32,668 nucleotides of DNA. It comes from Kribbella turkmenica. Its GTDB lineage: Bacteria > Actinomycetota > Actinomycetes > Propionibacteriales > Kribbellaceae. A model generated the notes under the pieces. That model saw only the letters and a program-made list of their open reading frames with translations. It had not been told where the DNA came from and ran no database searches. The stretch covers positions 1 to 32,668 of the forward strand of contig NZ_SMKR01000077.1 in the NCBI RefSeq assembly GCF_004348725.1. Direction: 5' to 3'. This document shows positions 5,605 through 13,793 of the stretch, piece after piece; the stretch's first letter is position 1, and each line of letters starts with the position of its first letter. The position numbers and the translations under genes were made by a program.

Positions 5605-6432
5605 TCAGGCGGAGGACTCGTTGGTCGTCGGTTGAGGCATTTCGTGGTGAGGGCGGGACTGCCAGAGGGCCCATTCGGCGCTGACGTCTCCGGCGGTGCG
5701 CAGCAGCAGCGGGAGGTAGTCGTGCAGGAGTTTCTCAGTGGTGGTCTCCGCGGCGTGCACGGTGACGTTCATGGCGGCGCGAACCGTTCCGGTGCCGTCG
5801 CGGACCGGGGCCGCGACCGAACGCACCCCCGGCGCGAGCTCCTCGTCCGCCAGGGCCCAGCCACGGGCGCGGATCTCCGTCAGTTCGTCGCGCAGCTGTT
5901 CCGCCGTTCGGCCGATGTACGGCGGAAGACCGGCGCGACTGGGTTGCGCGAGGGTGTCCGCGAGCTCGGCAGGGGACAGGGCCGCGAGCAGCACCTTGCC
6001 CTGTGAGGTCTGAGCGGCCGGGAACCGGGTGCCGATGTCGACCCGGAGCGCGATGATCTTCGGCACCGACACCCGGGCGACGTAGACGATGTCCGAGCCG
6101 TCGAGCTGGGCCATCGACGACGACTCGCCGGTCCGGCTGACGAGGGTCTCGAGGTGCGGCCGGGCGATGTCCCACAGTCCGAGGGCCCCGACGTACGCCA
6201 TGCCGAGCGTCAGCACCTTCGGCGTCAGCTGGAACGAACCGTCGGTCGACCGGACGAAGCCGAGCTCCTCGAGGGTGAGCAGGAGGCGGCGCGCGGTCGG
6301 CCGGGCCAGCCCGGCCGCGGCCGCCACCTCCGACAGCGACATGGTCCGGTGGTCGGCGTCGAAGCAGGCGAGCACGTCCAGCCCGCGAGCCAGCGACTCG
6401 ACGAAGTCCGGGCCCGCGCCGCGTCCTGCCAT
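5605..6432 (-). CDS. IclR-family transcriptional regulator
   Basis: This is a 275-residue IclR regulator. An N-terminal winged helix (about residues 15-75) includes LSEVAAAAGLARPTARRLLLTLEEL, and the C-terminal effector domain has the usual GTRFPAAQTSQGKVLLAAL and LADEELAPGVRSVAAPV blocks. The closest described groups are the PcaR/PobR-type regulators of aromatic catabolism. It lies 58 nt downstream of the amidohydrolase on the same strand and is probably co-transcribed with it, so it likely controls the divergent promoter region at 7967-8148. The ATG at 6432 is preferred; a GTG immediately before it (6435) is possible, and an AGGA lies at suitable distance. Repressor or activator cannot be told. 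Confidence 0.93.
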   Translation of the reverse strand: MAGRGAGPDFVESLARGLDVLACFDADHRTMSLSEVAAAAGLARPTARRLLLTLEELGFVRSTDGSFQLTPKVLTLGMAYVGALGLWDIARPHLETLVSRTGESSSMAQLDGSDIVYVARVSVPKIIALRVDIGTRFPAAQTSQGKVLLAALSPAELADTLAQPSRAGLPPYIGRTAEQLRDELTEIRARGWALADEELAPGVRSVAAPVRDGTGTVRAAMNVTVHAAETTTEKLLHDYLPLLLRTAGDVSAEWALWQSRPHHEMPQPTTNESSA

Positions 6433-6490
6433 CACGTCCTGCCTTCCGTCCGGCGTCCTGTCGCCGACGAGCCTACGACGCCCACCGGGC

Positions 6491-7966
6491 TCACGAGCCG
6501 GGTTCGCCGAAGATCGTGCCGCGTGCCTCCCGCGTCGACTCGGACTTGTACTCGGTGTACTGATACGGGTTGTCGAGCACCTCCTCCTCGGGCCGGTCCG
6601 GGTTCATCCCGGCGGTCCAGGCCTCGTCGCCGAGCGCCCCGCGCAGGTAGTCCACGGTGTTCTCGACGGCCCGCCGTACGGCGGGCAGGTCGGCGCCCGT
6701 CAGCTTGTTCGCGTACTTCACCACCCGGCCGTCGACCAGCACGGTGTGGACGTCGCCGCGCTGCGCCTGGAACGCCACGTGCCCGTAGGGATTGACCAGC
6801 GGGAACGACACCGGGGAGTCGTCGTTCTTGATCAGTACGACGTCCGCCTTCTTTCCCGGCTCGAGACTGCCGAGGTCGTCGCGGCCGATCGCGCGGGCGC
6901 CGCCGCGGGTCGCCCAGTCGACCACGTGCTCCGCGCGCAGATGGCTGTGGGTCACGGTGTCGCCCTTGGCGTGGGCCTCGAGGTGCTCGCGGGCCCGGTC
7001 GGCGCCGAGCGTCGTCCGCATCGCGGTGAACAGGTCGCCGCTCCACCAGACGCTGGTGTCCATCGACAGCGACACCGGGATGCCGTACCTGCGGACCTGC
7101 CAGGTGGGCGGGTAGCCCTGGCCGGCGCTCTGCTCGGACTCGGTCGAGACCGACACCGAGCCGCCGGTGGCGGCGATCCGCTGGTAGGAGTCCTCGGTCA
7201 GCGTGGCCGCGTGCACGTAGATGTTCTGCGGGGTCATGAAGCCGTTCTCGTGCATCAGCCGGATGCCGTCGTCGTTGGTCGCGCCCCACACGCCGGCGTG
7301 GGTGGTCACGCCCAGCCCGAGGTCGCGGGCCACCTCGAAGGCGGCCCGTTCGGGGAACGACGGGTCGCCGGTGACGTCGAAGGCGAGTTGCAGGCCGAGC
7401 CGGTCGTCGTCGGCGCGCAGCCGCTCCAGGAAGGCGCGGACGGACGGGTCCGCGGTCCACTCCCACGGACCGGCCTGAATGTTGCCGTAGGCAAGGACGA
7501 ACCGGCCGGGGACGGCCCGGAGCGCGTCCGCGGCGGCCTCGCCGTGGTCGACGGACTGCAGCCCGTGCGACCAGTCGACGGTGGTGGTCACCCCGGACTC
7601 CAGCGACTCCCAGGCCGACGTGAGGTTGCCGGCATGGATGTCCTCGGGACGGAAGGTCGTGCCGTGCTCGAGGTAGTACCAGACGAAGTACTGCGTCAGC
7701 GTCCAGTCGGCGCCGTACGCGCGCATCGCGGTCTGCCACATGTGCCGGTGGGTGTCGATCATCCCCGGCATCACGATCCCGCCGCGCGCGTCGATCTCCT
7801 GCGTGCCCTCGGGGGCGTCGACGGACGCGCCGACGGCCTCGATCCGGTCGTCGACCACCAGGACGTCGCCCTCGGTCAGCACCGTGTGGTTGTCGTCCAT
7901 GGTCAGCACGGTCCCGCCGCGCAGCAGGACCGGCCGGCCCGCCACCGGCGTCTCGGCAGTGGTCAT
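6491..7966 (-). CDS. Amidohydrolase-superfamily hydrolase/deaminase (ATZ/TRZ type)
   Basis: This is a 491-residue metal-dependent amidohydrolase. The N-terminal beta-sandwich is followed by VMPGMIDTHRHMW with metal ligands His73 and His75, then THAG (a later His ligand) and SLSMDTSVWW, where the Asp fits the conserved catalytic Asp. The closing LEPGKKADVVLI segment is typical of the ATZ/TRZ and SAH/8-oxoguanine deaminase group, which hydrolyse C-N or C-Cl bonds on N-heterocycles. The ATG at 7966 follows GGAGGGG; a longer frame to 8014 runs into the promoter region and is rejected. Divergent transcription with a ring-cleavage operon suggests it prepares an aromatic or heterocyclic substrate; that is inference. 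Confidence 0.88.
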   Translation of the reverse strand: MTTAETPVAGRPVLLRGGTVLTMDDNHTVLTEGDVLVVDDRIEAVGASVDAPEGTQEIDARGGIVMPGMIDTHRHMWQTAMRAYGADWTLTQYFVWYYLEHGTTFRPEDIHAGNLTSAWESLESGVTTTVDWSHGLQSVDHGEAAADALRAVPGRFVLAYGNIQAGPWEWTADPSVRAFLERLRADDDRLGLQLAFDVTGDPSFPERAAFEVARDLGLGVTTHAGVWGATNDDGIRLMHENGFMTPQNIYVHAATLTEDSYQRIAATGGSVSVSTESEQSAGQGYPPTWQVRRYGIPVSLSMDTSVWWSGDLFTAMRTTLGADRAREHLEAHAKGDTVTHSHLRAEHVVDWATRGGARAIGRDDLGSLEPGKKADVVLIKNDDSPVSFPLVNPYGHVAFQAQRGDVHTVLVDGRVVKYANKLTGADLPAVRRAVENTVDYLRGALGDEAWTAGMNPDRPEEEVLDNPYQYTEYKSESTREARGTIFGEPGS

Positions 7967-7985: not shown

Positions 7986-7999
7986 CGGACATACGTCCG
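7986..7999. promoter_or_regulatory. Operator-like palindrome, amidohydrolase side
   Basis: CGGAC-ATAC-GTCCG is a perfect inverted repeat with a 4-nt centre, just upstream of the amidohydrolase ribosome-binding site. Read in the direction of that gene it is CGGACgtATGTCCG. It matches the site at 8120-8133 at 12 of 14 positions. It is probably bound by the IclR regulator encoded nearby. Confidence 0.6.
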
Positions 8000-8026: not shown

Positions 8027-8055
8027 ACTATCCGAGCGGGCCAGGACGGTGTCAA
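8027..8055 (-). promoter_or_regulatory. Putative promoter of the amidohydrolase-iclR unit
   Basis: On the minus strand TTGACA (8055-8050) and GATAGT (8032-8027) are separated by exactly 17 nt. This is close to the vegetative sigma consensus. Predicted transcription starts near 8020, which puts the operator at 7986-7999 in the early 5' leader. Confidence 0.6.
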
Positions 8056-8072
8056 GAGTTCAACTATGACGC

Positions 8073-8101
8073 TTGACAGGTGCGGGGAGCGCTCCGAGAC
8101 T
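8073..8101 (+). promoter_or_regulatory. Putative promoter of the CoA-transferase/ring-cleavage operon
   Basis: TTGACA (8073-8078) and GAGACT (8096-8101) are separated by exactly 17 nt; transcription would start near 8108. The -35 faces the opposite promoter's -35, and together they form an inverted repeat TGTCAAG-N15-CTTGACA (8049-8079 region), a possible second regulator contact. Confidence 0.6.
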
Positions 8102-8119: not shown

Positions 8120-8133
8120 CGGACAGATGTCCG
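8120..8133. promoter_or_regulatory. Operator-like palindrome, CoA-transferase side
   Basis: CGGAC-AGAT-GTCCG is a perfect inverted repeat with a 4-nt centre, immediately before the AAGGGAG ribosome-binding site of the CoA-transferase gene. It is the partner of the site at 7986-7999. Bound protein here would sit in the 5' leader, downstream of the predicted transcription start. Confidence 0.6.
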
Positions 8134-8148: not shown

Positions 8149-9300
8149 GTGTCCGATGCTCGAGGTCCGCTGGCCGGCCTGCTGGTCGCCGACTTCTCCC
8201 GGATCCTGGCCGGCCCGTACGCGACCATGCTGCTGGCCGACCTCGGGGCCGAGGTGGTCAAGGTCGAGGGGCCGGGCGGAGACGACACCCGTTCGTGGCA
8301 GCCCCCGGTCCGCGACGGCATCTCGACGTACTACCTCGCGGTGAACCGGAACAAGCGGTCGATCGCGCTCGACCTGAAGGACCCCGAGGACCTGGCGGCC
8401 GCGCGGGAGCTGGCGCGGCGGGCCGACGTACTGCTGGAGAACTTCAAGCCGGGCGGGCTCGCGCGGTTCGGGCTGGACTACGACGCGGTCGCGGCAGGCA
8501 ACCCACGGGTGATCTACGCGTCGATCAGCGGGTTCGGCAGCGGGCCGAAGGGAGCGGTGCTGCCGGGGTACGACCTGATCGTCCAGGCGATCTCCGGATT
8601 GATGAGCCTCACCGGCGACCCGGACGGCGAGCCGTTCCGGGCCGGCATCTCGGTGTTCGACGTGATGGCCGGTCTGCACGCGACGATCGGCGTACTGTCC
8701 GCGCTGAACGCCCGGCACGAGTCCGGCCGCGGTCAGCACGTCGAGGTGAACCTGCTGTCGTCGGCGCTGTCCGGTCTGGTGAACCAGTCGAGCGCGTACG
8801 TCGCGGGCGGCGTCGTCCCGCTGCGGATGGGCAACAGTCATCCGAGCCTGTTCCCGTACGAGCCGCTGCCGTGCTCGGACGGCGAGCTGATCATCACCGC
8901 CGGGAACAACGGCCAGTTCCGCAAGCTGACCGAGGTCCTCGGCGTCCCGGAACTGGCCGGTGATCCGCGGTTCGACCAGAACGAGAAGCGGACCGCGAAC
9001 CGCGCCGCCCTGCGGCCGCTCCTGGTCGAGCGGTTGCGGACCCGGACCCGGATGGAGTGGTTCGGCGACATCATCGCCGCGGGCGTGCCGTGCGGGCCGA
9101 TCAACACCATCGACGCCGGCGTGGCCTTCGCCGAGGACATCGGCCTCGACCCGGTGGTGACGCTGGGGGCGATCCCGACCGTGCGCAACCCGATCACCTT
9201 CTCCGAGACCCAGCCGTCGTACCGGCTGCCGCCACCGGAACTGGACGAGCACGGCGCCGAGCTCCGGCGCTGGCTGACCGACGAGGAGCGTTCGGCATGA
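8149..9300 (+). CDS. Class III CoA-transferase (CaiB/BaiF family)
   Basis: This is a 383-residue family III CoA-transferase. These enzymes move CoA between carboxylic acids through an aspartyl-CoA thioester. The N-terminal Rossmann part has FSRILAGPYATMLLADLGAEVVKVE, followed by NRNKRSIALDLK and LLENFKPG. SVFDVMAG contains the expected catalytic Asp at about residue 171. The GTG start at 8149 has AAGGGAG upstream. The stop overlaps the next gene's start (ATGA), so the two are translationally coupled. As first gene of the operon it probably activates a di- or tricarboxylate derived from ring cleavage, which the next gene would then split; the actual acids are unknown. Confidence 0.92.
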   Translation: MSDARGPLAGLLVADFSRILAGPYATMLLADLGAEVVKVEGPGGDDTRSWQPPVRDGISTYYLAVNRNKRSIALDLKDPEDLAAARELARRADVLLENFKPGGLARFGLDYDAVAAGNPRVIYASISGFGSGPKGAVLPGYDLIVQAISGLMSLTGDPDGEPFRAGISVFDVMAGLHATIGVLSALNARHESGRGQHVEVNLLSSALSGLVNQSSAYVAGGVVPLRMGNSHPSLFPYEPLPCSDGELIITAGNNGQFRKLTEVLGVPELAGDPRFDQNEKRTANRAALRPLLVERLRTRTRMEWFGDIIAAGVPCGPINTIDAGVAFAEDIGLDPVVTLGAIPTVRNPITFSETQPSYRLPPPELDEHGAELRRWLTDEERSA

Positions 9301-10073
9301 CCACCTTTCCCACCTCCCTCGGTACGTCGACGTCCGACGAGATCCGCCTGCTGGGCCAGGACCTCACGGCCGACCTGATGGGCAAGGTCGGCTTCGGTGA
9401 GCTCGCCTTCTGGCTGGTTGCGCTGCGCCGGCCGACACCGTCCGAGACACGATTGTTCGAGGCGGTTCTGGTCGCGCTGGCCGACCACGGCTTCACGCCG
9501 ACGGCGATCGCGGCGCGGCTGACGTACCTCTCGGCGCCGGACTCCCTCCAAGGCGCGCTCGCGGCCGGGCTGCTCGGTGGCGGCTCCCGCTTCCTCGGGG
9601 TGACCGAGGACTGTGGGACGTACCTGCACGAGGCGCTGCTCGGCCACGAGTTGCCCGCCGACGAGGCCGGCTGGGACGCGCTCGCCGTCGAGGTGGTGAC
9701 CGAGACACGCGAGGCCGGCAAGTACGTGCCCGGTCTCGGCCACCCGGTGCACAAGGAGCGGGACCCGCGGACGCCGGTGCTGATCGCGATCGCCGCGGAC
9801 GAAGGTCTGCTCGGACCACACCTGCAGCTGTTCCAGGCCATCGGGCGGACCCACGAGCAGGTGCTCGGCCGCAAGCTCCCACTCAACGGCGCCGGAGTCT
9901 GCGGTGCGGCGCTCGCCGACCTCGGGTTGCCGGTCGAGCTGCTGCGCGGCTTTGCCCTGCTGGCCAGGGCCGCCGGGCTGCTCGGCCAACTGGCCGAGGA
10001 ACGCCGCCGGCCGATCGGCATGGACGCCTACCTCGCCGTGGATCGCAACGCGGTCTACGTCGATCCGATCTGA
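9297..10073 (+). CDS. Citryl-CoA lyase-like protein (citrate synthase superfamily, short form)
   Basis: This 258-residue protein matches the lyase domain of the citrate synthase superfamily, as in stand-alone citryl-CoA lyase and the C-terminal part of ATP-citrate lyase. It is much shorter than citrate synthase (about 370-430 residues). GLGHPVHKERDPR (His149 and His152) is the conserved catalytic block, and LNGAGVCGAALADLGLP is the later substrate-site loop. The ATG at 9297 overlaps the CoA-transferase stop. In family terms it should cleave a citryl-CoA-like thioester to an acyl-CoA and a keto acid. The pairing with a CoA-transferase supports that sequence of steps; the true substrate is inferred to be a ring-cleavage product. 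Confidence 0.82.
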   Translation: MTTFPTSLGTSTSDEIRLLGQDLTADLMGKVGFGELAFWLVALRRPTPSETRLFEAVLVALADHGFTPTAIAARLTYLSAPDSLQGALAAGLLGGGSRFLGVTEDCGTYLHEALLGHELPADEAGWDALAVEVVTETREAGKYVPGLGHPVHKERDPRTPVLIAIAADEGLLGPHLQLFQAIGRTHEQVLGRKLPLNGAGVCGAALADLGLPVELLRGFALLARAAGLLGQLAEERRRPIGMDAYLAVDRNAVYVDPI

Positions 10074-10085
10074 GAGGAACCCGAC

Positions 10086-10949
10086 ATGGCCACTGTCGTC
10101 GCGGTCATCGCCTCCACCCACCATCCGTTCTACTACCGCGCGAGTACGGCGACCGGCGCCGACCGGCCGCCGTTCGCCGACGAGTGGGTGGCCAAGATCG
10201 AGGCCTTCCGGGAGACCCTGACCAAGGCCCGGCCGGACATCCTGGTGATGGTGGGCAGCGACCACTTCCACCAGCTCTGGCTGGACAACATGCCGCAGTT
10301 CCTGGTCGGCAAGGCGCCGTACTTCGACGCGAACTGGTACAACGAGGAGCGCGAGTTCGGCCTGCCGCGGATGACGCTGCCGGGGGAGGAGCGGCTGGCC
10401 GCGCACATCCTGCGCAACGGCCTGGACGCCGGCTTCGACCTTGCCTTCAGCAACGAATTGCGGATCGACCACAGCATCACCTGCCCGATCATCACGCTGC
10501 GGCCGGAGGCGGACCTGCCGATCGTGCCGATCTACACCAACATCTTCGCGCCACCGCTGCCGCGCCCGCAGCGCTTCGTCGAGCTCGGGAGGACGATCCG
10601 GCGGCTGGTCGAGTCCTGGCCGGACGACCAGCGGGTGGCGATCATCGGCACCGGTCACCTGTCGCTCGAACTCGGCGGGCCACGGCAGTTCGGTGCCCAC
10701 GGCCCCGATCCGGAGTTCGACCGGAAGGCGATCGAGTGGATCGCGCGCGGGGACCTCGACGGCTGCCTGGCCGAGGTGACGCTGGACAGCCTGCACCTGC
10801 CCGGGAACGCGACCCACGGGTTCATGGACTTCATGCTGATGATGGGCGTGGCCGGCGCCGGTCAGAAGGCCGATCACGTCGACTCCCTCGACCTGTTCCA
10901 CACGATGGAGGCGTACTTCACCTGGTACCCGAACGGAGCGCCGGCGTGA
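10086..10949 (+). CDS. LigB-type class III extradiol dioxygenase, catalytic subunit
   Basis: This is a 287-residue protein of the LigB superfamily of Fe(II) extradiol ring-cleavage dioxygenases. His12/His13 in ASTHHPFYY and His60 in MVGSDHFH fit the two His iron ligands. GTGHLSLEL and AHGPDPEFD are further family blocks. I could not place the third (Glu) ligand with confidence. A ribosome-binding site (GAGAGGAA) precedes the ATG. It lies between the citryl-CoA-lyase-like gene and a LigA-type gene, so it probably works as a two-subunit enzyme on a catechol-like carboxylated ring. The order (B before A) is the reverse of the classical ligAB. Confidence 0.9.
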   Translation: MATVVAVIASTHHPFYYRASTATGADRPPFADEWVAKIEAFRETLTKARPDILVMVGSDHFHQLWLDNMPQFLVGKAPYFDANWYNEEREFGLPRMTLPGEERLAAHILRNGLDAGFDLAFSNELRIDHSITCPIITLRPEADLPIVPIYTNIFAPPLPRPQRFVELGRTIRRLVESWPDDQRVAIIGTGHLSLELGGPRQFGAHGPDPEFDRKAIEWIARGDLDGCLAEVTLDSLHLPGNATHGFMDFMLMMGVAGAGQKADHVDSLDLFHTMEAYFTWYPNGAPA

Positions 10950-11032
10950 AGGACCGCAGCAAGGTCCCCCAGCAAGCACAGCGCGTTCGAGCCTCGTCCG
11001 CGCCGGAGCGAAGCGAGGACGTGGATGAGTAG
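10946..11032 (+). CDS. Short linker ORF between the LigB-like and LigA-like genes
   Basis: This 28-codon frame starts at a GTG overlapping the dioxygenase stop (GTGA) and ends in a TAG that lies inside the start of the LigA-type gene. It therefore couples the two genes without a gap. The predicted peptide is charged (for example APERSEDVDE) and resembles no protein I know. The same bases carry GAGCGAAGCGAGGA, which gives the next gene its ribosome-binding site. It may be only a translational-coupling element or a REP-like insertion, not a functional peptide. Confidence 0.3.
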   Translation: MKDRSKVPQQAQRVRASSAPERSEDVDE

Positions 11033-11384
11033 GTACCTGCTGGACAAGTTCCTCTTCACGATCGACCGCGACCCCGCCCTGGTCGAGCGGTACCGCGAGG
11101 ACGCCGCCGCGACGGTGGCCTGGTGGGAGGAGGAAATGGCGAACCGGATCCTCAACTGCACCTCCGGGGAGCGGTCGACCTGGCTGGCGTTCACCGACGA
11201 GGAGCGGCAGGCGCTGGTCGCCCAGGATCACGTGACGCTGTTCCGGATGGGCGCCCATCCGTTCCTCACGTTGACGCTGTTCATCGCGATGTTCGAGCGC
11301 GACCACGGTCCGCTGGAGTACCAGAAGGCCTACGGCAAGGCGCTCCAGCACCTGACCCTGCCCTATCCGGACATCGCCACCTAG
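11025..11384 (+). CDS. LigA-type small (alpha) subunit of a class III extradiol dioxygenase
   Basis: This 119-residue, mostly helical protein matches the aromatic-ring-opening dioxygenase LigA family. The diagnostic part is FTDEERQALVAQDHVTLFRMGAHPFLTLTLF (about residues 66-96). In protocatechuate 4,5-dioxygenase the alpha subunit covers the active site formed by the beta subunit, and a similar role with the upstream LigB-type protein is likely. The ATG at 11025 has GAGGA about 5 nt upstream. It is followed after 8 nt by the MDR oxidoreductase, so it sits inside the operon. Confidence 0.85.
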   Translation: MSRYLLDKFLFTIDRDPALVERYREDAAATVAWWEEEMANRILNCTSGERSTWLAFTDEERQALVAQDHVTLFRMGAHPFLTLTLFIAMFERDHGPLEYQKAYGKALQHLTLPYPDIAT

Positions 11385-11392
11385 GAGATCGC

Positions 11393-12421
11393 GTGCGAGC
11401 AGCCGTCCTGCGCGTCCACGGTGAAGCACCGTCCCACGGTGACCACCCGGACCCGGTCCCGGCCGAGGGGCAGTCGATCGTCCGCGTGACCGCGGCTCCC
11501 GTCGTACCGCTCGATCTGCTGTGCGCGTCCGGTACGTCGTACTTCGGTCCGCCCGAGGTCCCGTACGTCCCGGGGGTACAGGGAGTCGGCGTGGTCGAGG
11601 AGTCGGCTGTCGTCACTCCGGGCATCAAGGTCTTCTTCGCGACATCGGCGGGGATGGCCCCGGGCGACGGGAGTTTCGCCGAGCGGTGCGCCGTACCGGA
11701 TGCGGATCTCGTCGCGCTCGACACGCCGGTGCCGGACACGGAGGTTGCGGCGATCGGTCTGTCGGGGGTCGCGGCGTGGATGGTGCTGAGTTGGCGTGCG
11801 CGGCTCCAGCCGGGCGAGCGAGTCGTCGTGCTCGGCGGCGGGGGAGCGGTCGGGCAGGCCGCGATCGGTACGGCGCGAGTGCTCGGAGCGAGCCGGGTCG
11901 TCGCCGTGTGCCGCTCCGACGACGCCCGCCGGCGGGCGCTGGCTGCGGGCGCGGACGAGGTGATCACGCCGGCCGACCGCGTGCCGCAGGACCGCGCCGA
12001 CAAGACCGGCGGTGAGCTGGCCGGACAGCCTGCCGACACCACGGACCTGACAGCGAGGCTCGCCGAGGCGACCGGTGGCGCGGTCGACGTCATCGTTGAC
12101 CCGGTCTTCGGGTCGGTCGCGAGCGCGGCCGCGCGGCTGCTGGCACCCGGTGGGCGCCTGGTCAATCTGGGTGGCGCCTCGGGAGACGAGGCGACGTTCT
12201 CGTCGGCGATCCTCCGCAGCCGGTCCGCGAGCATCCTCGGCTACACCAACAACGCCATCACCCCGGACCAACGCCGCGACGCCCTCACCGCCGTCCTCCG
12301 GCAGGCGGCCGCGGGCGCCGTCACGGTTGCCCATGAGACGGTCGCGCTCCCCGACATCACGGCGGCCTGGAACCGCCAGTCCACCGGCCGGACCGCCGGC
12401 CGCCTCGTCCTCACGCTCTAG
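11393..12421 (+). CDS. Zinc-binding-dehydrogenase-like (MDR/quinone oxidoreductase) protein
   Basis: This 342-residue member of the medium-chain dehydrogenase/reductase superfamily has an N-terminal GroES-like domain (VPYVPGVQGVGVV) and a nucleotide-binding domain with VVVLGGGGAVGQAA at about residues 145-160. No cluster of four Cys for structural zinc is visible, so the quinone-oxidoreductase or enoyl-reductase branch fits better than a classical alcohol dehydrogenase. The start is the GTG at 11393, preceded by TAGGAG. It is the last gene of the operon and could reduce an enal, enone or semialdehyde arising from ring cleavage; this is inferred from position only. Confidence 0.85.
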   Translation: MRAAVLRVHGEAPSHGDHPDPVPAEGQSIVRVTAAPVVPLDLLCASGTSYFGPPEVPYVPGVQGVGVVEESAVVTPGIKVFFATSAGMAPGDGSFAERCAVPDADLVALDTPVPDTEVAAIGLSGVAAWMVLSWRARLQPGERVVVLGGGGAVGQAAIGTARVLGASRVVAVCRSDDARRRALAAGADEVITPADRVPQDRADKTGGELAGQPADTTDLTARLAEATGGAVDVIVDPVFGSVASAAARLLAPGGRLVNLGGASGDEATFSSAILRSRSASILGYTNNAITPDQRRDALTAVLRQAAAGAVTVAHETVALPDITAAWNRQSTGRTAGRLVLTL

Positions 12422-12500: not shown

Positions 12501-13793
12501 ATGCGTGAGCCTCAGGTGATCAATGACAACGGTGCATGGTGCTGGTTCCAGGACGAGCGGGCGGTGGTGGACCCGGACAGCCAGGCCCTGGTGGTCGGGT
12601 CGATCGCGGCCGCCGAGGGGCCGGGCGGTGCGGAGCGGTCGGGGAACGTCGAGCTGACCGTCGTCGACCTGCGGTCCGGCTCGAGCGAGGTCGTCGTACT
12701 GGACGAGCGGTTCGAGGCCGACGATCACGACGTGCCGGCGCTGTGGCGGCGGGCCGACGGCCGGTGGCTGGCGGTGTACACCAAGCACAAGACGGATGAC
12801 CTGACCCGGTGGCGGGTGAGTGAGCCGGGGGATCCGCGGACGTGGGGTCCGGTGCGGACGTTCGACTGGAGCGAGTTCACCGGCGGGCGCGGGGTGACGT
12901 ACTCGAACCTGCACCGGCTCGACGGACGGCTGTACTGCTTCGCGCGGGCGGTCAACGACGACCCGTGCGCGCTGGTCTCCGACGACGACGGCGACAGCTG
13001 GACGTACGCCGGCAAGCTCTTCACCCGGCCGAAGGTCGGCTACGTCAACGGCTACACGCGGTACGTGTCGACGCCGACCCGGATCGACCTGGTGACGACC
13101 GACCACCACCCGCGCGACTACGACAACTCGATCTACCACGGCTATCTCGAGGGCGGCGCGCTGCACCGGTCGGACGGGACGGTCGTGGATCCGGTGGCGT
13201 TGAAGGGCGAGGCGCCTTCGCAGGTGGAGCTCACCACCGTGCTCCGAGCCGGGTCGGTGTGGGACGGCGAGCCGATGACGCACTGCTGGACGATCGACAT
13301 CCGGCGGGCGGACGACGGCACGGTCGCGGCGGTGCTGCTCGCGCGGCAGGACACACCGGACAAGCCCGAGGACGCGTTCGAGCGGCGGCGGAACGTGCTG
13401 GACCACCGCTACTTCTACGCGCGCCTGGCTCCGGGCGGCGAGTGGGAGGTCCGTCAGTTGGCGAAGGCGGGCGCCGGGCTGCTGCCGCACGAGCAGGACT
13501 ACACCGGTCTGGTCGCGATCGACCCGTACGACATCGAGTCCCTCTACGTCTCGACGCCGATCGACCCGCGCGACGGCACGGAACTGGCGCACCACGAGAT
13601 CTTCCACGCCCGCGTCGCCGGCACGGGTGCGACTTGGACACCGGTGACGGAGAACTCCGCTGTCGACAACCTCCGCCCCATCGTCGCCCCGGGCGACCCG
13701 GCCCGGATCCCGCTGCTCTGGTTCCGCGGCCCGATGACCGCGTCCCAGCACTACGACTGCGAGGTCGTGCTCCTCGACCAGCCGCGCGAGTGA
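12501..13793 (+). CDS. BNR-repeat (BNR_4-like) beta-propeller protein, probable carbohydrate-active enzyme
   Basis: This 430-residue protein has the pattern of the BNR_4 family: INDNGAWCWFQDERAVV near the start, the Asp-box-like SDDDGDSWTYAGKL, then TRYVSTPTRIDLVTTDHHP and NSIYHGYL, which is typical of the family's conserved blade. Such six- or seven-bladed propellers occur in polysaccharide lyases and glycosidases, but the reaction here is not fixed. No signal peptide is visible, so a cytoplasmic location is likely. The ATG at 12501 follows GGGGA. The LacI-type operator in front suggests induction by a sugar. Confidence 0.8.
   Translation: MREPQVINDNGAWCWFQDERAVVDPDSQALVVGSIAAAEGPGGAERSGNVELTVVDLRSGSSEVVVLDERFEADDHDVPALWRRADGRWLAVYTKHKTDDLTRWRVSEPGDPRTWGPVRTFDWSEFTGGRGVTYSNLHRLDGRLYCFARAVNDDPCALVSDDDGDSWTYAGKLFTRPKVGYVNGYTRYVSTPTRIDLVTTDHHPRDYDNSIYHGYLEGGALHRSDGTVVDPVALKGEAPSQVELTTVLRAGSVWDGEPMTHCWTIDIRRADDGTVAAVLLARQDTPDKPEDAFERRRNVLDHRYFYARLAPGGEWEVRQLAKAGAGLLPHEQDYTGLVAIDPYDIESLYVSTPIDPRDGTELAHHEIFHARVAGTGATWTPVTENSAVDNLRPIVAPGDPARIPLLWFRGPMTASQHYDCEVVLLDQPRE

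Follow-up and report, generated by a model that had tools for sequence, protein, structure and literature searches.

Several described routes bear on the locus reported here. In the 4,5-cleavage of protocatechuate and gallate, LigAB or GalA/DesB acts with LigC, LigI, LigJ and LigK or with GalB, GalC and GalD. The hydroxyquinol (resorcinol) pathway comprises hydroxyquinol 1,2-dioxygenase and maleylacetate reductase and continues into the beta-ketoadipate pathway, whose lower part uses the CoA-transferase PcaIJ and the thiolase PcaF; a gentisate route with a LeuCD-type maleate hydratase is also known. Extradiol and intradiol dioxygenases are textbook opposites, with unrelated folds, different iron states and different products. 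Here we analyse a stretch of 32,668 nucleotides from Kribbella turkmenica (contig NZ_SMKR01000077.1, positions 1 to 32,668; hereafter the window), in which genes for a LigAB-type dioxygenase form an operon with those for a class III coenzyme A (CoA) transferase and a citrate-synthase-fold lyase, and we find that in related operons LigAB has repeatedly been exchanged for an intradiol dioxygenase. No description of this operon or gene combination was found in the literature, in a search that had most subscription journals outside its reach.

When compared with these systems, the window operon resembles 4,5-cleavage clusters in its LigB fold and LigA-like partner but lacks their aldolase, hydratase and tautomerase, and LigA follows LigB, whereas in the canonical cluster it precedes it. 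A canonical Azospirillum LigAB cluster (L136; L numbers are our locus handles) carries genes for 4-carboxy-4-hydroxy-2-oxoadipate aldolase, oxalomesaconate tautomerase and an amidohydrolase-family protein. The hydroxyquinol pathway is alike in that the enzyme replacing LigAB is 47% identical to such a dioxygenase of the host and that flavin adenine dinucleotide (FAD) hydroxylases lie beside several loci, but where that pathway has maleylacetate reductase the window operon has the CoA-transferase and the citrate-synthase-fold enzyme. With the lower beta-ketoadipate pathway the operon would share its logic, a ring-derived beta-keto diacid being activated with CoA and cleaved at a C-C bond to acetyl-CoA, as well as an IclR regulator of the PcaR/PobR type, whereas the enzyme families for both steps are unrelated. 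As in the gentisate route, LeuC/LeuD-like genes lie beside some sets, but they are absent from the window and most loci. The operon and its regulatory region comprise the following features:

5605 to 6435, minus strand: IclR-family regulator of the PcaR/PcaU/PobR group (PF01614/PF09339; TIGR02431 265 bits, slightly below its cut-off, 284.75)
6491 to 7966, minus strand: amidohydrolase (PF01979; NF006056 381 bits, cut-off 391); its open reading frame (ORF) opens at GTG 8014
7986 to 7999, no strand: operator palindrome CGGACATACGTCCG on the amidohydrolase side, from the shared-word count in divergent regions
8027 to 8055, minus strand: promoter-like TTGACA-17-GATAGT of the amidohydrolase-iclR arm, a consensus match only (1 found against a mean of 0.1 in shuffles)
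8073 to 8078, plus strand: TTGACA, a possible -35 box of the CoA-transferase arm, read from the sequence; the scan scored no full promoter there
8120 to 8133, no strand: operator palindrome CGGACAGATGTCCG, 5' of the CoA-transferase gene, from the same shared-word count
8149 to 9300, plus strand: class III CoA-transferase (CaiB/BaiF; PF02515 380 bits)
9297 to 10073, plus strand: citrate-synthase-fold protein of the 'citryl-CoA lyase' group with Ala199 instead of the essential Asp (NCBIfam NF004868 283 bits, cut-off 193)
10086 to 10949, plus strand: catalytic LigB-type dioxygenase subunit whose active site is changed at L194 and G245 (PF02900 91.7 bits, cut-off 26.3)
10946 to 11032, no strand: interspersed repeat between ligB and ligA, from the host-genome repeat count; a short ORF in the first-pass annotation
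11025 to 11384, plus strand: divergent LigA-like small subunit (PF07746 in 15 of 17 family members; window protein E=0.0018)
11393 to 12421, plus strand: zinc-type MDR oxidoreductase, quinone-reductase-like (PIG3 group, below cut-off)

The CoA-transferase and lyase genes overlap in an ATGA joint, and the LigA-like and MDR genes are separated by 8 nt. Pfam and NCBIfam matches thus bear out the tight gene series with divergent amidohydrolase and IclR genes that the first-pass annotation, made from the sequence alone, had described. Of the six operon genes it listed, those for the CoA-transferase, lyase, LigB and MDR protein stand, the LigA assignment is weak for the window protein itself, and the short ORF falls away as an interspersed repeat. 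Its remark that LigC, LigI, LigJ and LigK are missing from the operon also holds, with no such aldolase gene between 5605 and 12421. The models nearest to the CoA-transferase are the succinate-glutarate, oxalate and mesaconate CoA-transferases, with all NCBIfam equivalogs scoring below cut-off.

We compared the window with the best 80 of at least 514 confirmed lyase relatives from a genome scan with the lyase, giving 81 loci. The 80 relatives were selected via lyase similarity, some loci are cut by contig ends, and genes were called with a simple codon-usage model that misses genes in lower-GC loci, for example in Arthrobacter. The lyase was called in 78 loci, the CoA-transferase in 77, the amidohydrolase in 66, IclR in 65, LigB in 59, LigA in 57 and the MDR protein in 48. 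The CoA-transferase gene is followed by that for the lyase in 74 of the 81 loci, LigB by LigA in 57 and the lyase by LigB in 55, while the amidohydrolase is divergent to the CoA-transferase in 52; because the same gene orders recur, the grouping is not due to chance. The conserved synteny that the first-pass annotation proposed to look for is therefore present, with CoA-transferase, lyase, LigB/LigA, amidohydrolase and IclR recurring as a block. Apart from the seven block genes and the dioxygenase that replaces LigAB, no gene cluster occurs in more than 8 of the 81 loci, and the block therefore has sharp borders. The gene set is widespread among soil bacteria, and plasmids of Rhodococcus, Aminobacter, Martelella and Sinorhizobium carry the same module, with TRAP or ABC transporters alongside it in the last three, all alphaproteobacteria. 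A membrane protein of about 170 residues, presumably DoxX-like, lies in 8 loci, four of each dioxygenase type (L049, L071, L076, L078, L062, L072, L075 and L079).

In 16 of the 81 loci LigAB is missing and a 287-residue intradiol dioxygenase stands in its place, whereas the two occur together in none of the 81. Neither dioxygenase was called in six loci, in two of which (L039, L046) tblastn recovered LigB. The intradiol-type loci are mostly from Geodermatophilaceae, with others in Streptomonospora, Nocardiopsis, Streptomyces, Arthrobacter and further genera. One record, titled Bacillus sp. AZ43 (UNVERIFIED_ORG; L019), has a typical Geodermatophilaceae operon version and groups with Blastococcus; it is probably a mislabelled genome. 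Against the PDB, the best matches of the replacement are hydroxyquinol 1,2-dioxygenase 1tmx (264 bits), PnpC (259 bits) and 6-chlorohydroxyquinol-1,2-dioxygenase (251 bits), compared with 128 bits for the best catechol 1,2-dioxygenase and at most 43.6 bits for protocatechuate 3,4-dioxygenase chains; by sequence similarity it is of the hydroxyquinol-1,2-dioxygenase type. At least two kinds of enzyme act as replacement, that of L051 being 39% identical to that of L016.

On a tree of the CoA-transferase and lyase (82 rows: 62 LigAB, 16 intradiol and 4 unassigned), at least six dioxygenase switches are needed, and at least five when five long or plasmid rows are left out; trees were built by a quick method, with dioxygenase labels from the codon-usage gene caller and tblastn. 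A single origin of the intradiol version is rejected, as holding the intradiol rows as one clade gave an approximately unbiased test p-value of 5.5e-8 on the tree without these five rows. Between two Arthrobacter species placed as sisters in the tree, the dioxygenase type differs (L050, L051). The cleanest swap pair is Rhodococcus NBC_00297 (LigAB) and R. opacus G13 (intradiol), whose operons have IclR, amidohydrolase, CoA-transferase, lyase, LeuD-like and HsaA-like genes in common, with FAD hydroxylases 85% and alpha/beta-hydrolases 81% identical, and differ in the dioxygenase. Searches with LigB in 13 intradiol-type genomes gave no match above 34% identity, and searches with the intradiol replacement in 15 LigAB-type genomes none above 48%; relocation of LigAB elsewhere in the intradiol-type genomes was rejected, with a close copy in 0 of 13.

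Both operon versions also carry one operator. CGGACNNNNGTCCG occurs 79 times in the 52 divergent regions between amidohydrolase and CoA-transferase genes (11,374 bp), where first-order Markov resampling predicts 0.09, and 20 times in the remaining 819,717 bp of the same loci. At least one copy is present in 12 of 12 intradiol-type, 33 of 37 LigAB-type and 3 of 3 unassigned divergent regions. Because both versions share this operator, LigAB and the intradiol enzyme are probably interchangeable. The two sites in the window, 7986-7999 and 8120-8133, are each preceded by promoter-like elements, the former by the minus-strand TTGACA-17-GATAGT (8055-8027) and the latter by the plus-strand TTGACA (8073-8078); such positions just downstream of promoters would suit a repressor. 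The IclR protein is the likely regulator of both arms and probably represses them via the paired CGGACNNNNGTCCG sites. The amidohydrolase belongs to the same regulon as the CoA-transferase arm, and since the conserved operator occupies 7986-7999, its reading frame probably begins at ATG 7966 and not at GTG 8014. Across the host genome (7.45 Mb, high-GC), CGGACNNNNGTCCG occurs 54 times compared with 27 for the reversed control word. A wider host regulon was considered and rejected: among 13 other chosen CGGACNNNNGTCCG sites 12 lie inside predicted ORFs and one is intergenic, and no further member was found.

Next, we investigated the dioxygenase subunits, using fold comparisons that covered the chains ranked highest by Foldseek. 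The AlphaFold model of LigB has a mean predicted local distance difference test score of 80.4, with low-confidence stretches at 61-67 and 192-205, the latter including the catalytic loop. It is closest to gallate dioxygenase DesB (Z 28.6, 269 residues, root-mean-square deviation (rmsd) 2.6), followed by LigAB at Z 28.2. In DesB two His and Glu239 are metal ligands and His192 is a second-sphere His. DesB His12, the second His ligand and His124 are matched by His12 (kept in 61 of 63 sequences, with 2 gaps), His60 (63 of 63) and His129 of the window protein, but DesB His192, in the catalytic loop, corresponds to Leu194 and DesB Glu239 aligns without gaps with Gly245, each in 63 of 63 window-type LigB proteins. 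The window loop reads GTGHLSL versus GTGGLSH, with His191 three residues earlier, and the canonical Azospirillum LigB has GTGGLSH and GAE at these positions. Next to Gly245, His244 (61 of 63, Gln in 2) or Asp248 (61 of 63) could, judging from the alignment, serve as third metal ligand. An intradiol-forming variant of homoprotocatechuate 2,3-dioxygenase, H200F, is known. Identity of the window LigB to its counterparts in K. pittospori and K. capetownensis is 96%. The window LigA-like protein alone scores 18.8 bits with PF07746 (E=0.0018), below the cut-off of 25.3, while 15 of 17 members of its family match, the best with E 8.1e-6; a PDB profile search gave no LigA match, and single-sequence hhalign against Azospirillum LigA gave a probability of 21% over 40 columns.

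The lyase model is closest to citryl-CoA lyase 6hxp (Z 23.4, rmsd 3.0, 241 residues). Window-type lyases share with citryl-CoA lyase, the C-terminal module of ATP-citrate lyase and citrate synthase the fold, the two His and the D-P-R motif, and 83 of 83 sequences retain His64, His149 and Asp156/Arg158. In contrast, residue 199 aligns with Asp1026 of human ATP-citrate lyase (ACLY; aligned ranges ending at 209 and 1036) and with Asp541 of the M. concilii enzyme (ends 209 and 551), the residues mutated in the D1026A and D541A structures, and this essential Asp is present in 0 of 93 relatives: of the 83, 80 have Ala and 3 have Ser at position 199, and all 10 distant relatives have Ala, Ser or Thr there. 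ACLY-D1026A forms citryl-CoA but not acetyl-CoA, according to PMC10115795, whose authors hold the citrate-synthase module to be allosteric in ACLY, so that the exact role of Asp1026 in that enzyme is under debate. Because none of the 93 has the Asp, the name 'citryl-CoA lyase' is doubtful for the whole Asp-less group, and the ordinary citryl-CoA lyase chemistry proposed in the first-pass annotation is not upheld.

Asp-less lyases also occur outside ring cleavage, mostly in acyl-CoA gene sets (L087, L088, L089, L101, L102, L103, L105, L106 and L108, on plasmids, one of a haloarchaeon). In these nine loci, which were hand-picked from the match list and are not a random sample, an acyl-CoA dehydrogenase gene lies near the lyase in 7 of 9 and an SDR gene adjoins it in 5 of 9, and in L102 the lyase adjoins a 3-oxoacid CoA-transferase. 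No thiolase is annotated in their displayed stretches, an absence that is weak given incomplete gene tables. These neighbours, together with the lack of an annotated thiolase, suggest that Asp-less lyases cleave beta-ketoacyl-CoA or 3-hydroxyacyl-CoA.

Taken in this light, we tentatively propose, at somewhat below even confidence, an inducible operon in which a hydroxyquinol-type ring would be cut to a beta-keto diacid, activated with CoA and split by the Asp-less lyase to acetyl-CoA and a C4 acid. The dioxygenase would cut between two hydroxylated carbons to give a beta-keto dicarboxylate; that the broken bond joins two such carbons follows from the assumption that both dioxygenase types make one product. 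An ordinary extradiol LigAB would therefore need a further neighbouring hydroxyl, as in 1,2,3,5-tetrahydroxybenzene (6-hydroxyhydroxyquinol), our preferred substrate, from which either enzyme type could yield 2,4-dioxoadipate without new chemistry. The class III CoA-transferase would then load CoA onto the acetate end, and the lyase would break the bond beta to the thioester in a retro-Claisen type of reaction, giving acetyl-CoA and, by cutting next to the 4-keto group, oxaloacetate. Within the same proposal hydroxyquinol is the alternative substrate, which would yield maleylacetate and, after the lyase step, maleate as the C4 acid. The lyase step would stand in for LigK, or for maleylacetate reductase and thiolase, and the MDR protein probably serves either to hold the polyphenol in its reduced state or to reduce an intermediate.

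Flanking genes offer further clues. FAD aromatic hydroxylases of the NF004829 subfamily are found next to two LigAB-type loci (L050, L085) and the B. glumae set of the intradiol type (L104), with a 43% relative in L073. LeuC and LeuD are found beside the B. glumae set, and a LeuD-like small subunit beside both dioxygenase types (L028, L057, L085, L112). LeuC was found only in the betaproteobacterial sets L104 and L107, the latter a record without annotation; the four LeuD-bearing stretches L028, L057, L085 and L112 gave no LeuC match. LeuCD-type maleate hydratases are known, HbzIJ among them, and these neighbours would suit a maleate product. The MDR gene was found in 0 of 6 LeuD-bearing loci, one of them incomplete, as if reduction and hydration were alternatives, though six loci prove little. 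The FAA-hydrolase gene beside LigAB in R. johnstonii points away from maleate and hydroxyquinol and toward 1,2,3,5-tetrahydroxybenzene. The host itself carries a separate, canonical-looking hydroxyquinol set (L113, contig C73), with FAD monooxygenase-like and IclR genes, the intradiol dioxygenase 47% identical to the replacement and a 42% maleylacetate-reductase-like gene. Both this set and the R. johnstonii gene count in favour of 1,2,3,5-tetrahydroxybenzene.

Several observations weigh against the proposed route. The loci were chosen by lyase similarity, so the presence of the lyase in them is not evidence, and the operator word is absent from 4 of 37 LigAB-type divergent regions. Loss of the Asp leaves any retro-Claisen or retro-aldol step by a citrate-synthase fold unexplained, and the missing thiolase annotation has the limit given above. 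LeuD beside LigAB favours maleate, and hence hydroxyquinol, over the oxaloacetate expected from the preferred substrate, and in two Nesterenkonia loci the LigAB set has a maleylacetate-reductase-like gene in its vicinity; conversely, hydroxyquinol as the window substrate would be redundant because the host has its separate set. Furthermore, neither hydroxyquinol nor gallate supported growth of C. metallidurans CH34 (PMC8879955), a strain with a set distantly related to the intradiol-type one.

The hydroxyquinol alternative in its full form, which we consider unlikely though it deserves attention, takes hydroxyquinol itself as the substrate: a LigAB-fold enzyme with a rebuilt active site would functionally substitute for intradiol hydroxyquinol dioxygenases and, acting in an intradiol manner, cleave the ring between the two adjacent hydroxyls to maleylacetate, and the Asp-less lyase would split maleylacetyl-CoA to acetyl-CoA and maleate, bypassing maleylacetate reductase and thiolase. 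In favour of hydroxyquinol are the LeuD-like and LeuC genes, the changes in the LigB active site and the replacement of LigAB by an enzyme of the hydroxyquinol type; the growth result for CH34 counts against it.

About equally doubtful is that the lyase acts as a retro-aldolase of a 3-hydroxyacyl-CoA, with prior reduction of the beta-keto group (MDR or SDR) or hydration of a double bond, followed by release of acetyl-CoA and an aldehyde or keto acid. Retro-aldol cleavage is the parent chemistry of the citrate-synthase fold, and the SDR genes adjoining the lyase in 5 of 9 plasmid loci and the MDR gene in 48 of 81 ring-cleavage loci would provide the reduction; however, 33 of 81 loci, some of them truncated, lack the MDR gene, and the loss of the Asp, which would be the proton donor to the acetyl-CoA enolate, affects this reading as well.

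Marginally less probable still is that LigAB and the intradiol enzyme have different substrates, the CoA-transferase, lyase and amidohydrolase forming a general lower pathway for several ring-fission products. The two or more kinds of replacing enzyme fit this, as do the distant L104 and L107 sets, which differ in other genes, but both types share the operator, no locus has both, and in Rhodococcus the same hydroxylase, hydrolase, LeuD and HsaA-like genes surround both.

Quite improbable is the pathway of the first-pass annotation, in which LigAB opens a gallate- or protocatechuate-like ring and a hydrated, citrate-like tricarboxylate is CoA-activated and split as citryl-CoA is, replacing LigK: despite the fold matches to DesB, LigAB and 6hxp and the conserved His64 and His149, the replacement is of the hydroxyquinol type (264 versus at most 43.6 bits for protocatechuate-type intradiol enzymes), pointing to a ring without a carboxyl group, the Asp is lost in 93 of 93 lyases, and acetate-end splitting of CoA-bound 4-carboxy-4-hydroxy-2-oxoadipate would leave 2,4-dioxoglutarate, which needs further processing. 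A CoA route instead of LigK nevertheless stands as architecture, in a conserved, co-regulated operon without LigC, LigI, LigJ or LigK, while the citrate-like substrate and citryl-CoA chemistry do not. Three RraA-like proteins (PF03737, which we take to be the family of LigK) are encoded elsewhere in the host genome, where a LigK is possible.

The amidohydrolase had been suggested to deaminate or open a nitrogen heterocycle. ATZ/TRZ-type deaminases have H-x-x-E at the histidine, and because H239 of the window protein is followed by A-G-V, the residue pattern speaks mildly against this role. The short ORF at 10946-11032 was rejected as a peptide gene, because the segment belongs to an interspersed repeat for which 40 places were scored across the host genome, counting the segment itself, and because, of the 56 other loci in which both genes were called, 49 show a 4-base ligB/ligA overlap at the same spot. 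The repeat measures about 80 bp, and its insertion point is precisely where ligB meets ligA; at this place a comparable gap of 76 bases occurs in K. capetownensis (L004) and a 4-base overlap in K. pittospori (L003). Directly downstream of the operon, outside the conserved block, a BNR_4 (PF15892) repeat protein is encoded at 12516-13793. Additional neighbours include CocE/NonD esterase-like genes (L043, L057, L073, L082), HsaA-like monooxygenases (L043, L085, L112), luciferase-like monooxygenases (L060, L063) and, beside two Kineosporia loci, myo-inositol genes (L074 by similarity). MetE-like PF01717 proteins were found by scanning in L082 (5959-6984) and L023 (2996-4030) and by similarity in L054 and L063; they are 59-67% identical to the Aminobacter one, their hosts are Aminobacter, Geodermatophilus and a Nocardioidaceae metagenome-assembled genome, and a role as pathway demethylase or alkyltransferase is possible. 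Naming the substrate from these additional neighbours was considered and rejected, as none is general enough.

Overall, an extradiol and an intradiol dioxygenase replacing one another at least five times in one operon would mean that they do the same job there, and the determinants of the cleavage site could be tested on natural pairs, such as the two Rhodococcus plasmids that differ at the dioxygenase gene. Additionally, the name 'citryl-CoA lyase' (PRK06224 group) is widely annotated, and if these enzymes cleave beta-ketoacyl-CoA, many of these annotations would be wrong and the group would represent a new class of retro-Claisen enzymes.

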